This document shows, piece by piece, positions 6,665 through 12,939 of a stretch of 46,988 nucleotides of DNA. The notes beneath the pieces are model-generated. The model searched no databases. It worked only from the letters and a program-made list of their open reading frames with translations, and was not told the origin of the DNA. Source of the DNA: Candidatus Hydrogenedentota bacterium. Its GTDB lineage: Bacteria; Hydrogenedentota; Hydrogenedentia; Hydrogenedentales; SLHB01. The translations under genes and the position numbers were made by a program. The DNA lies in assembly GCA_019695095.1 (NCBI GenBank), contig JAIBAQ010000024.1, positions 1-46,988 of the forward strand, written 5' to 3'. The first letter of the stretch is position 1. Every line of letters begins with the position of its first letter.

Positions 6665-7726
6665 CTAGACTATTGTCACTTCGCGATTGCGCGCCGAGGA
6701 CTCGTAGATTGCATCGATAATCTTCTGAATGTTGAGGGACTGTGCGGGTAGCACGCGCACCTCTCGGTTCTTTTCCACGCACTCCGTGAAATGCCGGATT
6801 TCCCCGCGATGGCCCTCTTCGTTCGGCATCCAGTCATACTTGGTACTGGTCAGCGCGCGGCGTTCGTACCCGTAAACACCCAACGGATCGGTCATGATGC
6901 CTGCCTTGTCGCCGAGGATCGTGATTCCCGCCTTCTCTTCCGCAATGTTCGCGGCCCAGGAGACCTCTACGGTCATCGTGATGCCTCCTTCGAAGCGCAC
7001 GTAAGCGGAGGCATAATCTTCGACATCGAACTCCTTTGGTGGATGCCGTTCTCCCCATTCCCCGTTAACAAGGTCTTCGCGGTCTCCGAACATGCGATAC
7101 ACCTTGCCTGAGGCAGCAACGGGTTTGGGACAACCCATCAGCCATACCGCCAAGTCCATCATATGTACGCCGATGTCGATGAGCGGCCCGCCGAGCGACT
7201 CCTTTTGAATGTGAAACTTCCCCCAGCCCGGAATGCCGCGACGCCGCAGCCATGTGGCATTTGCCGAGTAGATCGTTCCCAAGCGGCCGCTCTCAACAAC
7301 TTCTTTGAGCTTTTCGTGCGCAGTCTCGAACCGCATGTGTTGCGCGACCATGAGTTTGCGCTTCGCGGTCTGTGCCGCCGCCATCATCTGCTGGCATTCC
7401 TTGGCGTTCATGGCCATAGGCTTTTCAACAAGAACGTGCGCACCAGCCTTGGACGCGGCAATGGACACGGGAGCATGGCAGCGGTTATGGGTGCAGACGT
7501 CGATAATGTCGTACTGACCGTCCTTCAGCATCTTCTTGTAGTCGGTGTAGACTGCGCGCGCGCCGTATTTGCTGGCCATCGCCTCAGCGCGATCGGGAAT
7601 CAAGTCGCAGACTGCCATCAACTCAACGCGGCCTTCCGCCTCAAGTTCATTCCAATATGGAAGGTGACGTTCGTCCGCAATTGCGCCGACTCCCACCACG
7701 CCAACTCGAAGTTTCATCTTTGCCAT
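6665..7726 (-). CDS. Gfo/Idh/MocA family NAD(P)-dependent oxidoreductase (cytosolic)
   Basis: 353 residues from ATG 7726, which has GAGGAG five bases upstream; a GTG six bases earlier is in frame but overlaps the preceding stop and is less well placed. The Rossmann start GVVGVGAIADERH and the family signature HVLVEKPMA (Glu101-Lys102-Pro103) are clear, followed by GGPLIDIGVHMMDLAVW, which carries the conserved Asp and His of the active site. Enzymes of this family oxidise or reduce sugar hydroxyls with NAD(P). No signal peptide, so it acts in the cytosol, unlike its Tat-exported relative at 23369. It lies two bases after the stop of the endonuclease-like gene, with its ribosome site inside that gene, so the two are coupled. 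Confidence 0.92.
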   Translation of the reverse strand: MAKMKLRVGVVGVGAIADERHLPYWNELEAEGRVELMAVCDLIPDRAEAMASKYGARAVYTDYKKMLKDGQYDIIDVCTHNRCHAPVSIAASKAGAHVLVEKPMAMNAKECQQMMAAAQTAKRKLMVAQHMRFETAHEKLKEVVESGRLGTIYSANATWLRRRGIPGWGKFHIQKESLGGPLIDIGVHMMDLAVWLMGCPKPVAASGKVYRMFGDREDLVNGEWGERHPPKEFDVEDYASAYVRFEGGITMTVEVSWAANIAEEKAGITILGDKAGIMTDPLGVYGYERRALTSTKYDWMPNEEGHRGEIRHFTECVEKNREVRVLPAQSLNIQKIIDAIYESSARNREVTIV

Positions 7727-7728
7727 AG

Positions 7729-8577
7729 TCACTCCTCGGGAACCAGTGCCCTTTCCACTCGCTCGTCTTCGTTGTCGCGCACCCCTTTATCTGCCGCGGT
7801 CTCCTTGGCGGGCTCCAGAGTCAATTCCGCAACGTACGGAAGATGATCGGAGGCGATGCACGCCTCTGGCGTGTCGACGACGCGGGAGGATAGTACGTTT
7901 ACTGACTTCGATACCAGAATGAAGTCGATCCGGTCTTTGGAGTCCTTTCCCTGAAGCGTTCCTTCCCGTTTGCCCGTCTGCCAAAGAAACGAATCGAGCA
8001 GTCTGCTGAGTAGTATCCGGAGCGCTGGGTCTCCTGCCGATTCGTTTAGGTCCCCTGCCACAACGCTGGGCACATCGCGAAGGCGGCCAACGATGCTCTC
8101 TGCCTGCACACGGCGCGACGTAGCGATCAAATCGAAATGTGTGTTGTAGATGTCGACTTCCTGTCCGTCTATGGACAGCGTTACTCTCAGGCATCCACGC
8201 TTCTCCCCCGTGCCACTGAATGGGAAGGAGATGTTCTCTGAGGATACAACTGGGAATCGCGATAGCGTAGCGTTGCCATACTTGCCGCCCTGGAATTCGA
8301 GGTTTGCGCCGAAACGCACTTCCATATTGAGTAGCTTGGCCAGTCCTGCGGGCATATCAATCTGATTCGTGCGGGTACAACCCTGATCAACTTCCTGCAG
8401 GCACACCACATCTGGGTGTTCAGATTGAATTACCCGAGCGATACGCTCCAGGTTTAACACCTCATCTGTCCCTTCTGCATGGTGAATGTTGTAGGTAAGC
8501 ACACGAAGAGTCGTGTCCGCCCTTAAGACCGGCATACAACCAAGTGCCATGAGGAACAGGGCTACTAGTCTTTTCAT
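7729..8577 (-). CDS. Secreted endonuclease/exonuclease/phosphatase family protein
   Basis: 282 residues from ATG 8577 with GAGGAG seven bases upstream. The N-terminus is a signal peptide (MKRLVALFLMALGCMPVLRA). All diagnostic motifs of the DNase I/exonuclease III-like fold are present: LTYNIH (Asn30), QEVD (Glu62), THFD (His147), GDLNE (Asp176, Asn178), DRIDF (Asp218) and SDHLPY (Asp244, His245). It should be an active metal-dependent phosphodiesterase or phosphatase exported from the cytoplasm; DNA, phospholipid head groups or nucleotide sugars are all possible substrates. The tail after LTLEPAKET is charged and probably disordered. It is coupled to the downstream oxidoreductase gene, and its ribosome site abuts a leader hairpin at 8588-8647. 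Confidence 0.9.
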   Translation of the reverse strand: MKRLVALFLMALGCMPVLRADTTLRVLTYNIHHAEGTDEVLNLERIARVIQSEHPDVVCLQEVDQGCTRTNQIDMPAGLAKLLNMEVRFGANLEFQGGKYGNATLSRFPVVSSENISFPFSGTGEKRGCLRVTLSIDGQEVDIYNTHFDLIATSRRVQAESIVGRLRDVPSVVAGDLNESAGDPALRILLSRLLDSFLWQTGKREGTLQGKDSKDRIDFILVSKSVNVLSSRVVDTPEACIASDHLPYVAELTLEPAKETAADKGVRDNEDERVERALVPEE

Positions 8578-8587
8578 GGTGGTACTC

Positions 8588-8647
8588 CTCGAAAAGGCCG
8601 CCACTCTCGCCGCGTAAGTGGCACACGGCGCGTTGCGACTTTTCGAG
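8588..8647 (-). promoter_or_regulatory. Nested leader hairpin that reaches the ribosome site of the 8577 gene
   Basis: CTCGAAAAG (8588-8596) and CTTTTCGAG (8639-8647) are perfect 9-base complements. Inside them GCCACT (8600-8605) and AGTGGC (8617-8622) form a second stem. Read on the minus strand the outer stem ends in GAG, which is the first half of the GAGGAG ribosome site seven bases before ATG 8577. Folding would therefore partly occlude translation initiation. Confidence 0.45.
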
Positions 8648-8856
8648 TCTACCATGTCCCGCAGGCCGAGATCTCGGTTTTGAAAAGCTTTGGCAGGGAC
8701 CCATGCACGCATATACCGCATTTAAATACAGAAAACCCGAAACAAGACGAACAAGGTTGCCGGTAATCGCACCCCATATACGGGCATGCATCCACATGGT
8801 GCCCCAGCGCGTTGTGTAGGAAGGTGCAGCAAACGCGTTCTACCACAAGATATTGC

Positions 8857-8885
8857 TTGACTTATTTGGGAATTCGGACTATAGT
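8857..8885 (+). promoter_or_regulatory. Near-consensus sigma70 promoter of the 36-codon gene
   Basis: TTGACT (8857-8862) and TATAGT (8880-8885) are 17 bases apart, among the best promoter matches in the window. The predicted start near 8892 gives a 230-nt leader before ATG 9122. The remaining stretch 8648-8856 shows nothing I can name. Confidence 0.65.
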
Positions 8886-8989
8886 CTATCTGACGTGATT
8901 TGGGGTGAAGAGTGGTTTTCTTGAATCCCAACGCACACGCAATCACGTATGTGTAACATCAAATGACCTCAGGGGTAATTGAGTTTGTA

Positions 8990-9082
8990 GGGTAGGAAAT
9001 CGCAAAGCGATTTCTAACCCAGCCGTGTGGTACCGATGTTTGACGATCTTAGGCGAGTGTTGATAGAGTGTAGCATCGCCTA
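8990..9082 (+). ncRNA. Structured leader with two hairpins (candidate cis-regulatory RNA)
   Basis: Hairpin 1 spans 8990-9020: GAAATCGC and GCGATTTC pair perfectly around an AAA loop, and the stem continues through a G-U pair and one mismatch to GGG/CCC at the base. Hairpin 2 spans 9050-9082 with perfect TAGGCGA/TCGCCTA arms. Neither is followed by a U run, so they are not terminators. They sit between the 8857 promoter and the GGAGGAG ribosome site of ATG 9122. A regulatory leader or a processed small RNA are both possible; no known riboswitch signature was recognised. Confidence 0.4.
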
Positions 9083-9121
9083 TGACGAGGCATAACGACA
9101 AGAAACGGAGGAGATCACCTA

Positions 9122-9232
9122 ATGAAGCACCTTAAGACCGTCAGCAAGCTGGATCCGAAAATGGCGCACGGACCGGCCGACAGCATCTTCAAGACCATCG
9201 AAGAGAAGGGCAAGGCTCCGAAGGTTAGCTAG
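9122..9232 (+). CDS. 36-residue basic small protein, complete stand-alone gene
   Basis: ATG with an exceptionally strong ribosome site (CGGAGGAGATCACCTA immediately before it) opens 36 codons ending in TAG. The product runs MKHLKTVSKLDPKMAHGP, then ADSIFKTIEEKGKAPKVS: Lys-rich, no signal peptide or membrane segment, no cysteine. Codon use resembles the neighbouring genes (AAG for Lys, ATC for Ile). The gene has its own promoter (8857-8885), a structured 230-nt leader and an intrinsic terminator (9269-9296), so it is a complete transcription unit. I recognise no family and assign no function. A ribosome-associated, DNA-binding or regulatory peptide role would each fit its charge. Confidence 0.65.
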   Translation: MKHLKTVSKLDPKMAHGPADSIFKTIEEKGKAPKVS

Positions 9233-9268
9233 TCTTTTCGACGTAGATCTCGATTTTACTACTAGAGA

Positions 9269-9303
9269 GTGCCTCATACCGCAGGGTGTGGGGCGCTTGT
9301 CTT
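9269..9303 (+). terminator. Intrinsic terminator of the 36-codon gene
   Basis: GTGCCTCATACC (9269-9280) pairs over its whole length, using G-U wobbles, with GGTGTGGGGCGC (9285-9296) around a GCAG loop. TTGTCTTT follows. The position 36 bases after the stop codon supports the small gene as a unit. Confidence 0.65.
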
Positions 9304-9752: not shown

Positions 9753-10634
9753 ATGAACCGCAAGGGCTTTACGTTGATTGAACTGCTTGTAGTAATTGCT
9801 ATCATCGGCATATTGGCTGCTATTCTTCTTCCCGCATTGGCGCGGGCGCGCGAAGCTGCCCGCCGCGCAAGCTGTCAGAACAATCTCAAGCAACTCGGTC
9901 TTGTCATGAAGATGTACGCAAACGAATCCAAAGGAGAGAAGTATCCCAGTCAGCAGAAGTGGGAAGGGGATGCCTGTACCCGTCGCACATTCATTGAGTT
10001 TTTCTTTGACGGTCGCGAGGTGTATCCCGAGTACTTAACGGATATCAACGTTATGGCGTGTCCTTCCGACTCCAATCCCGAAATTGAAACGTGGTACACG
10101 CCTGAAGATGTGAACGCCGGCACGCCAAATCCGTGCAAATTCCGCGCGACGTCTTACAACTACTCGTCATGGGTGCTTTCGGACGAGTTGATGTTGAACA
10201 ATGCGGCAGACAAGAACAACGCTGACCTTACGCTTGCAACTTTCTTGACCTACACAAGCCCCGATTTCCAAGCGGGAATCACCGATCTGCTTCAGAGAAT
10301 CGATGAAGAATGGGGGTCTGCAAGCGTTCCCGATCCGGGCGTCTATCACGAAGACTTTGAGGCCGGCAGCAAGATCGCGTACCGTCTGCGCGAAGGTATC
10401 GAGCGATTCTTTATCTCCGATATCAACAATCCAGCGGCCTCGGCAAAGGCACAGAGCGAAATCTTCGTGATGTACGACGATATCAACACTGGAGAGGTCG
10501 CGTTCATGAACCACATCCCCGGCGGCGGCAACGTGCTGTATATGGATGGACACGTGTCCTTCATCAAGTACCCGGGGGATAGCCCATTTTCTCGCGTTAT
10601 CGCAGTCCTGAATGAGTTTGCATATACCCTCTAG
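9753..10634 (+). CDS. Prepilin-type (DUF1559-like) protein 1 of tandem module A
   Basis: 293 residues. [10 protein letters not shown] at the N-terminus is a type IV prepilin/pseudopilin signal: peptidase cleavage falls between Gly and Phe, Glu5 of the mature protein is present, and [17 protein letters not shown] is the membrane/assembly helix. [18 protein letters not shown] follows, typical of DUF1559-like proteins of Planctomycetes and relatives. The C-terminus has the processing-associated His-to-Asp-Gly motif ([18 protein letters not shown]) with ten residues between His and Asp-Gly. [14 protein letters not shown] is shared with the other two prepilin-type proteins here, while the middle is divergent. 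Expected to be secreted and assembled on a pilus- or T2S-like filament; no machinery genes are in the window. GGGGAGG precedes the start. Followed by a TetR gene. Confidence 0.92.
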
Positions 10635-10783: not shown

Positions 10784-11581
10784 ATGGTTAACCAGGATGG
10801 TGACCACAGCGTAATGACGCAAAAGAGCAGCAGCGGCAAGCAACGTGAAATCCAGATGAGAGACGATCTCTTCTTGCGCGTTGCCCGAGACATCCTCCTT
10901 GAGGACGGCTATCACGGCCTGACAATGGCTCGTATCGCCAGCGTCACGCGCTTCTCCAAGGGAACGCTCTATAATCGTTTCACATGCAAGGAAGACCTGG
11001 TCGTTGAACTGGCCTGCCGGTGCCGGGAAGAACGCATTGCGATGGTAGACCGCGCAATGCGCTACGAGGGACGCCCGCGAGAACGGATGGTCGCCATCGG
11101 CGAAGCGGCCGAGCACTTCGCCCGCTTGTACCCAGAGAGTATTCGAGTCCTTCACATCATTGACGCCGAAGCCGTGCTGGAGAAGGTCCCGGAGAAGCAG
11201 CGCAGCAGGCTAAAAACCTACGATGAGCGAGTCTTCGCCGCTATGGCCGACCTAATTGAAGAGGCTATTTCCTTAAAGGATCTCGCGCTTCCCCCTCGAA
11301 CAACCGTCCGCGAAATCTGTTTCGCACTGTGGGCGCTTGTCGATGGCGGCGCCTCGGCCCGTCTTGGAGGTCTCCCCCTTGAGGCATTGGGCATCGCAGA
11401 CTCATTCGGCGCCATTGCGCGCGGGTGCCACTATCTCATGGACGGATTGGGTTGGAGGCCGCTCACGACGGAAATCAACTACAGTCTTGTCAGCAGGCAA
11501 ATACGGGATACTCTTCTTTCCGAAGAAGCGAAGCGCGTGACCGAGATGCAGTCCTTTCAGACGGTGCTCGCTAGACCATAA
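10784..11581 (+). CDS. TetR/AcrR-family transcriptional regulator of module A
   Basis: 265 residues; ATG with AGAGGAGG about ten bases upstream. The N-terminal helix-turn-helix (DGYHGLTMARIASVTRFSKG, then LYNRF) is a standard TetR DNA-binding domain, followed by an all-helical ligand domain. Segments RPRERMVAIGEA, RVLHIIDAEAVLEKV, FALWALVDGGASA and FGAIARGCHYLMDG recur almost unchanged in the regulator at 13050, showing the two are paralogues. It lies 150 bases after a prepilin-type gene on the same strand, a pairing repeated in the next module, which suggests it controls surface-filament expression or responds to the same cue. Ligand unknown. A short variable N-terminal extension distinguishes it from its paralogue. 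Confidence 0.92.
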   Translation: MVNQDGDHSVMTQKSSSGKQREIQMRDDLFLRVARDILLEDGYHGLTMARIASVTRFSKGTLYNRFTCKEDLVVELACRCREERIAMVDRAMRYEGRPRERMVAIGEAAEHFARLYPESIRVLHIIDAEAVLEKVPEKQRSRLKTYDERVFAAMADLIEEAISLKDLALPPRTTVREICFALWALVDGGASARLGGLPLEALGIADSFGAIARGCHYLMDGLGWRPLTTEINYSLVSRQIRDTLLSEEAKRVTEMQSFQTVLARP

Positions 11582-12051: not shown

Positions 12052-12939
12052 ATGCATCGCAAGGGATTTACGCTGATTGAATTACTTGTGGTGATCGCGA
12101 TCATTGGAATTCTGGCCGCCATATTGTTGCCTGCACTGGCCAGGGCTCGTGAAGCGGCGCGCCGCGCTAGCTGCGCAAACAATCTCAAACAGTTGGGCCT
12201 AGTCTTCAAAATGTACTCCGGTGAGTCAAAAGGAGAGAAGTTCCCGACCAATCACATGTGGTCACGCGGAGTGGTTGCCGGACAGTGCGTTCCCTCAAAT
12301 GAATTCCGCGCAGCGCCGAACGGTATGGCGGTGTTCCCTGAATACCTGACGGACATCAATGTCCTTGAATGCCCATCCGATGCCACGTACCAGCAAGAAA
12401 TTGAAGACTTTAAGACAGGCGGAGAGTTCGATCCGTGCACGTTCGATGCCCGTTCGTATATTTACATCGGCTGGCTGCTTACGCCGAAAGTTCTCATGGC
12501 AGACCCGACATTGGAGAACGACGCGGCCATCACGGCGGACAATGTCATAGGCTATCTCAATTTGGATGCGGGCGTGGCCATGAACGACATGCTTGACCTG
12601 GCAAATGAGTTTCCCACGACGTTGGATGCCTCAATCTATGACGAAGACCTTTCGGAAGGCAGCGTAACTGCGTATCGTCTCCGCGAAGGTATTGAACGGT
12701 TCCTGATTTCCGACATCAACAATGCCGCGGCGAGCGCCAGGGCCCAGAGCGAAATCTACGTCATGCATGACGACGTAAGCGGCAACTGGATCGGAAACTT
12801 CAATCACGTTCCCGGCGGTGGAAACGTGCTCTATCTGGACGGCCATGTAAGCTTCATCAGGTATCCCGGCGATTCGCCATTCTCTCGCTTCTTTGGATGC
12901 TTCATGTCCACAGTCAACTCGATTAAGAGTCCGGCTTGA
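12052..12939 (+). CDS. Prepilin-type (DUF1559-like) protein 2 of tandem module B
   Basis: 295 residues, paralogue of the protein at 9753. The N-terminal 60 residues are nearly identical ([11 protein letters not shown] signal, [17 protein letters not shown] helix, [23 protein letters not shown]). The C-terminal block ([41 protein letters not shown]) is also conserved. The central part (about residues 70-215) is clearly different from protein 1 but shares [12 protein letters not shown] with protein 3 at 31223, so proteins 2 and 3 are closer to each other than to protein 1. GGGGGAGGA precedes the start. The gene is followed by a strong terminator and then the second TetR gene. Expected to be processed by a prepilin peptidase and assembled at the surface. 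Confidence 0.92.

Follow-up and report, generated by a model that had tools for sequence, protein, structure and literature searches.

The transcription unit and its neighborhood

The window (the whole 46,988-nt stretch of DNA analyzed here) holds a transcription unit on its plus strand, between positions 8857 and 9303. A σ70-like promoter (TTGACT-17-TATAGT, 8857..8885, with 10/12 consensus matches) is followed by a 5' leader of ~230 nt (8893..9121) with hairpins at 8990-9020 and ~9047-9085, by a Shine-Dalgarno stretch, CGGAGGAGAT (9106..9115), that is placed alike in the orthologues described below, by a 36-codon open reading frame (9122..9232, stop at 9230-9232) whose ATG is preceded by the ribosome site GGAGGAGAT, and by an intrinsic-terminator-like hairpin (9267..9303: 14 pairs at 9267-9298, then GTCTTTATAC). 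The 5' leader is predicted to fold at -74 kcal/mol (z = -3.5), with its two-hairpin part, 8985-9085, at z = -3.7; the terminator hairpin scores z = -3.65, and its T tract is weak. The complete unit listed by the first-pass annotation is present in all its elements. Promoter and terminator matches are, by themselves, near chance (four promoters found vs 1.3 expected; one terminator vs 1.1 expected), and the unit is credible above chance because its frame, promoter, leader length and terminator are kept in other genera.

The encoded peptide, MKHLKTVSKLDPKMAHGPADSIFKTIEEKGKAPKVS, is precursor-like: a conserved N-terminal peptide leader, MKHLKTVSKLDPKMA (9122..9166), common to ~180 peptides of the phylum, is joined to a variable core, HGPADSIFKTIEEKGKAPKVS (9167..9229), which reads [CA]D[ST][IF][LF]KT[PI]EEK in the orthologues. 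AlphaFold2 (AF2), given the single sequence, predicts a helix at residues 18-29 with moderate confidence. That the peptide belongs to no known family is borne out by searches of Pfam, NCBIfam and the PDB sequences, which yield no match, and no plasmid relatives of it were found.

Two genes lie upstream on the minus strand, both named from their sequence: a Gfo/Idh-type oxidoreductase (6665..7732) and an endonuclease/exonuclease/phosphatase-like gene (7729..8721), the likely start of which is an ATG near 8577; the gap from that start to the prepilin gene at 9753 is ~1.18 kb. Downstream, two DUF1559-type prepilin-like genes (9753-10634 and 12052-12939) stand on either side of a TetR-like gene (10784-11581). 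Prepilin-like genes are also found near several of the maturation clusters of other genomes, probably just from being numerous.

Orthologues of the window gene

The window gene is real, with orthologues in no fewer than three other genera. Searching related genomes with tblastn and a profile retrieved its frame from G004, G020 and G024 (one genus), from G009 and G021 (another), and from G014; the orthologues read MKHIKALTKVDPKMAATNGAKCDTILKTPEEKEEKKAEKQNPTT and similar, with a terminator-like hairpin after the stop. The frame is conserved and silent changes are favored, as the check proposed in the first-pass annotation asked: pairs with the window give pS of 0.48-0.67 vs pN of 0.31-0.39, and the G004-G020 pair differs by two silent substitutions and zero replacing ones. 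At the position of an alanine in the window peptide, the orthologues of two genera carry cysteine (CDTILKT).

Synteny extends upstream. The oxidoreductase adjoining the peptide gene in G009, G021 and G024 is 74-76% identical to that of the window; G024 (oxidoreductase 76% identical) has both upstream genes in the same order, its nuclease being 50% identical and in the same place, and in G009 and G021 the oxidoreductase is in place beside the peptide. The proximity to prepilin genes that had been remarked upon is not conserved at the orthologous loci and appears incidental, since the upstream oxidoreductase and nuclease are what stays beside the orthologues.

Conservation of the 5' leader is of a limited kind: the position of the promoter and the length of the leader are kept, but its sequence and its hairpins are not. 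Four genomes retain the -35 and -10 boxes together with a 187-237 nt leader, and the alignment places a common flank, ACAAGATATTG, 5' of the -35 box of the window promoter and its orthologues (AAGATATTGTATTGAG...GTATACT in G009/G021, AGATATAGATTGCG...GTATACT in G024). The leader hairpins have no match in the DNA of 29 related genomes, an Rfam search of the leader returns nothing, and the leaders of the orthologues have at best a slight folding advantage over shuffles (z = -0.27, -1.68, -0.26 and -1.60). No conserved RNA structure of the sort that marks a riboswitch or a structured leader is found upstream, and the reading of the leader as a riboswitch or cis-regulator (the "leader-controlled peptide" of the first pass) was dropped as the main idea.

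A family of peptides with a common N-terminus

The window peptide is one of ~180 different peptides of 26-75 aa, all in Ca. Hydrogenedentota, that have the N-terminus M-[KR]-H-[IVL]-[KR]-x-[IVL]-[ST]-[KR]-x-P-x-x-A in common and unrelated C-termini (135 of them non-redundant). A pattern combining a ribosome site with MKH[x]..[ST][KR] retrieves 103 rows (including three sites counted twice through overlapping ribosome-site matches) from 68 genomes, which are the whole phylum in the GTDB-based set, vs two rows for a reversed-pattern control. Over the 135 non-redundant peptides, the first nine residues are rich in information, those up to ~15 moderately so (P at 11-12, A at 14-15), and from residue 16 the content is near background. 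Codons for K2 (AAA 83, AAG 82) and H3 (CAC 96, CAT 80) are evenly mixed, and the constraint therefore acts on protein; no upstream regulatory motif common to the family was found beyond the ribosome site and start. In this the peptides resemble RiPP precursors, which are short and have a conserved leader and a variable core.

The cores are basic and P/A/K-rich, Cys-rich, or hydrophobic helices. Lysine occurs within the last 22 core residues of 129 of the 135 peptides vs 106 in shuffles (the maximum among 500 being 120), these being pooled shuffles that ignore relatedness. Among 45 diverse members there is no convincing match to a Pfam or NCBIfam model; no NCBIfam model for a six-Cys-in-45 (SCIFF) precursor matches those 45 peptides, most cores having no cysteines, and no model for an NHLP or Nif11-like leader matches the family. 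One recurring core class, e.g., QGLCTNVTDELQARFCFVLAFLTDVFVPLVLPFIQSK, has two conserved cysteines (L124, L135, L209 and L214, with relatives in L213, L230 and L231); it stands beside the hydrophobic class in arrays, and the two may form two-peptide products.

The genome of the window (G000) encodes at least 14 family peptides, i.e., at least 13 besides that of the window. Two accompany the maturation cluster on contig C70; the other twelve or more are on C9 (two), C14, C24 (the window), C45 (two), C59 (two), C67, C87, C101 and C137. (A technical note: a loose motif without a ribosome site gives 141 matches in this genome vs 114 for the control and is mostly noise; only those matches that translate to small open reading frames with the leader were kept.) This puts the window peptide among roughly a dozen orphans. 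Another two, 28 aa long, P/A/K-rich and in tandem (MKHVKELSKAKLPAPAGAVPAKPVKKAG; G000:C9:58859-59061, L062:6085 and 6250, minus strand), belong to a class also present in G004, G020, G021 and G024; they look too short and too basic for bacteriocins.

The maturation and export cluster

The peptides often occur in tandem, and the arrays directly precede a cluster of genes in the order GNAT1, (GNAT2'), GNAT2, a CPBP/Rce1-type protease, an ABC ATPase, an ABC-2 permease and a fusion protein of ~640 aa. The arrays end in a conserved class, ADAFTNFxNAVWRAWxDFRYEKKNE, just before GNAT1, and family members are found directly upstream in most clusters whose upstream flank is intact. The cluster is syntenic, with the fusion protein encoded once per genome in 62/68 genomes; the free-standing GNATs, two or three per cluster, are as constant as the exporter, and the CPBP motif EExxxR is present in 49/50. 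The family as a whole accordingly has precursor genes adjoining maturation genes that include one for an RRE protein, but the orphan window gene does not.

Peptides are found in 44/62 genomes with the fusion gene vs 2/6 without it (Fisher p 0.08), and their hit counts differ between the two groups (Mann-Whitney p 0.02); the co-occurrence is statistically weak because only six genomes are without the fusion gene. One of these, G027 (99% completeness), has no fusion gene or cluster that could be found, yet carries a single MKH peptide on the small contig C397 (L141:1893); an assembly gap or a binning error could explain this, or the peptide may not depend on a cluster. Across 84,980 species the fusion protein is confined, save for one case, to records of Ca. 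Hydrogenedentota (some of them titled "uncultured bacterium"), in a scan that would miss distant relatives outside the phylum because it requires two conserved peptide motifs. The exception, a record titled Nitrospiraceae, probably corresponds to G010:C638, which the GTDB-based set places in Hydrogenedentota. An active, ScfB-like radical-SAM enzyme was considered as the partner of the peptides and rejected: it is present in only 8/68 genomes and absent from that of the window. Models of anti-phage systems give no match.

The RRE/SPASM/GNAT fusion protein

In the fusion protein, an RRE/SPASM maturase of the CteB type has shed its radical-SAM cysteines and acquired a GNAT domain. A profile search with the fusion finds CteB (5wgg) over residues 4-425, the RRE included, with E = 8e-43; Foldseek, given an AlphaFold2 model (pLDDT 85.8), returns 5wgg/5why (CteB) as the best PDB hit, with the C-terminal part resembling SpeG/ArsN-like GNATs. 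The radical-SAM motif CX3CX2C is found in 0/39 fusion sequences, the ISHDCNLRCKYC segment of CteB being replaced there. Invariant in alignment A3 (L282 numbering) are the SPASM-type cysteines C393, C396, C402 and C425, and C25 and C28 in the RRE part. These last are in a near-invariant CFCFECD (residues 23-28; L282:10001-11920), possibly a metal site, where CteB has no cysteines.

Relation to known systems

The first 425 residues of the fusion protein are homologous to the CteB/SCIFF (ranthipeptide) maturases (5wgg, TIGR03974, NF040492), including the N-terminal RRE and the SPASM C-x2-C-x5-C part. The fusion differs from those maturases in having no CX3CX2C (39/39) and an added C-terminal GNAT, and its precursors are not six-Cys SCIFFs; two marks of a ranthipeptide system, an active radical-SAM maturase and a six-Cys precursor, are therefore absent. 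Selidamides, the GNAT-acylated RiPPs (phaeornamide, PhaN; PMC9505594), likewise have leader-bearing precursors, GNAT acyltransferases and an exporter; putative GNAT genes and a fused GNAT domain are both present here, and the likeness suggests acylation of lysine or ornithine as the outcome. Phaeornamide is made from an NHLP-family precursor with a LanM (PMC9505594), in contrast to a 15-residue leader without a Pfam or NCBIfam match and an RRE/inactive rSAM/GNAT fusion as partner. The prochlorosins (ProcM, with 29 ProcA substrates; PMC10783134) offer a parallel in layout: a single maturation system serves numerous precursors that have the leader in common but differ widely in their hypervariable cores, and that are in many cases encoded singly and far from the enzyme. 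In the present system there is, however, no lanthionine synthetase, the leader is by model search unrelated to Nif11, and the distribution is near-universal in a phylum. PqqD/RRE-dependent RiPP systems (RRE-Finder; PMC7470986, PMC12710340) likewise have an RRE domain, predicted to bind the leader; GNAT or acetyltransferase fusions do not figure in the main text of these RRE surveys. The open literature searched, which was covered incompletely, yielded no account of the system. The family is apparently undescribed: the general RiPP scheme is familiar, but no precedent was found for its leader, fusion protein or set of genes.

What does the window gene specify?

The probable answer is an orphan (dispersed) precursor, processed in trans, that belongs to a RiPP-like system peculiar to Ca. 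Hydrogenedentota. By analogy with known RiPP systems, and from the gene content of the cluster, the 15-residue N-terminus would serve as the leader, to which the RRE domain of the single-copy fusion protein (contig C70) probably binds; the fusion protein, as a scaffold, would offer the short core both to the GNAT domain that it carries and to the cluster's two or three free-standing GNATs, which probably acylate a lysine near the C-terminus; the CPBP protease would remove the leader, and the ABC-2 transporter would export the product. It is the common leader that argues for processing in trans, since the window peptide does not lie beside the cluster. Given the diversity of the cores, it is not certain that a single chemistry serves them all, and GNATs in operons can have other roles: immunity or unrelated acetylation.

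Might the common N-terminus instead be only an export or sorting tag, recognized by the ABC transporter and the CPBP protease, with the peptides secreted unmodified as bacteriocins or signals and the GNATs serving immunity or something else? CPBP proteins have known roles in bacteriocin self-immunity and in peptide processing, the exporter and CPBP genes are always there, and amphipathic or hydrophobic helices of the kind usual in bacteriocin-like peptides make up many of the cores. Such a tag would nevertheless leave aside the RRE/CteB-like protein and the free GNATs (two to three), all as constant as the exporter, and a near-universal C-terminal lysine, in peptides that have no GG-type or Sec leader; we consider it unlikely.

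Two other proposals, both of which would detach the peptides from the cluster or reduce it to an outlet, are less probable still. One, close to the suggestion of the first-pass annotation, takes the gene to encode a small regulator, or a leader peptide under riboregulation, that is controlled by the hairpins and has nothing to do with the cluster. The promoter and long 5' leader conserved in four genomes, and the strength of the hairpins in the window, speak for it; the hairpins are not conserved, Rfam is without a match, and dozens of peptides directly before RiPP-type genes have the same N-terminus. A precursor peptide is the likelier reading because of the fixed leader, the hypervariable core and the linked maturation/export cluster, and the regulator is quite improbable. 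The other would make the peptides structural or toxin-like parts of a different process (a membrane-active toxin, a toxin-antitoxin pair, a cofactor precursor of the PQQ or mycofactocin kind), with the cluster as their only outlet. Cofactor RiPPs are, like this system, single-copy and near-universal, and the ADAFTNFxNAVWRAWxDFRYEKKNE class just before GNAT1 stands out from the other classes in being far more conserved. Against this, the genome of the window encodes at least 14 different family peptides, which is unlike a single cofactor precursor, and the anti-phage models give no match. We hold this to be very improbable and place it last.

A single 36-codon gene leads in this way to a testable system of ~180 precursor-like peptides, 135 distinct cores and one conserved cluster in nearly all sampled genomes of Ca. 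Hydrogenedentota, a phylum known almost wholly from metagenomes. The leader, should acylation be confirmed, is short enough to make a useful tag. The fusion protein is a natural case of a radical-SAM maturase in which the catalytic cluster has been lost, the substrate-recognition parts kept and a new enzyme domain acquired. One can go further, tentatively and with rather more doubt than confidence, and think of the dead maturase as a leader-binding scaffold fused to an acyltransferase that would acylate a dispersed set of hypervariable peptides, a dozen or more per genome, throughout the phylum, possibly constituting its main repertoire of secreted peptides.
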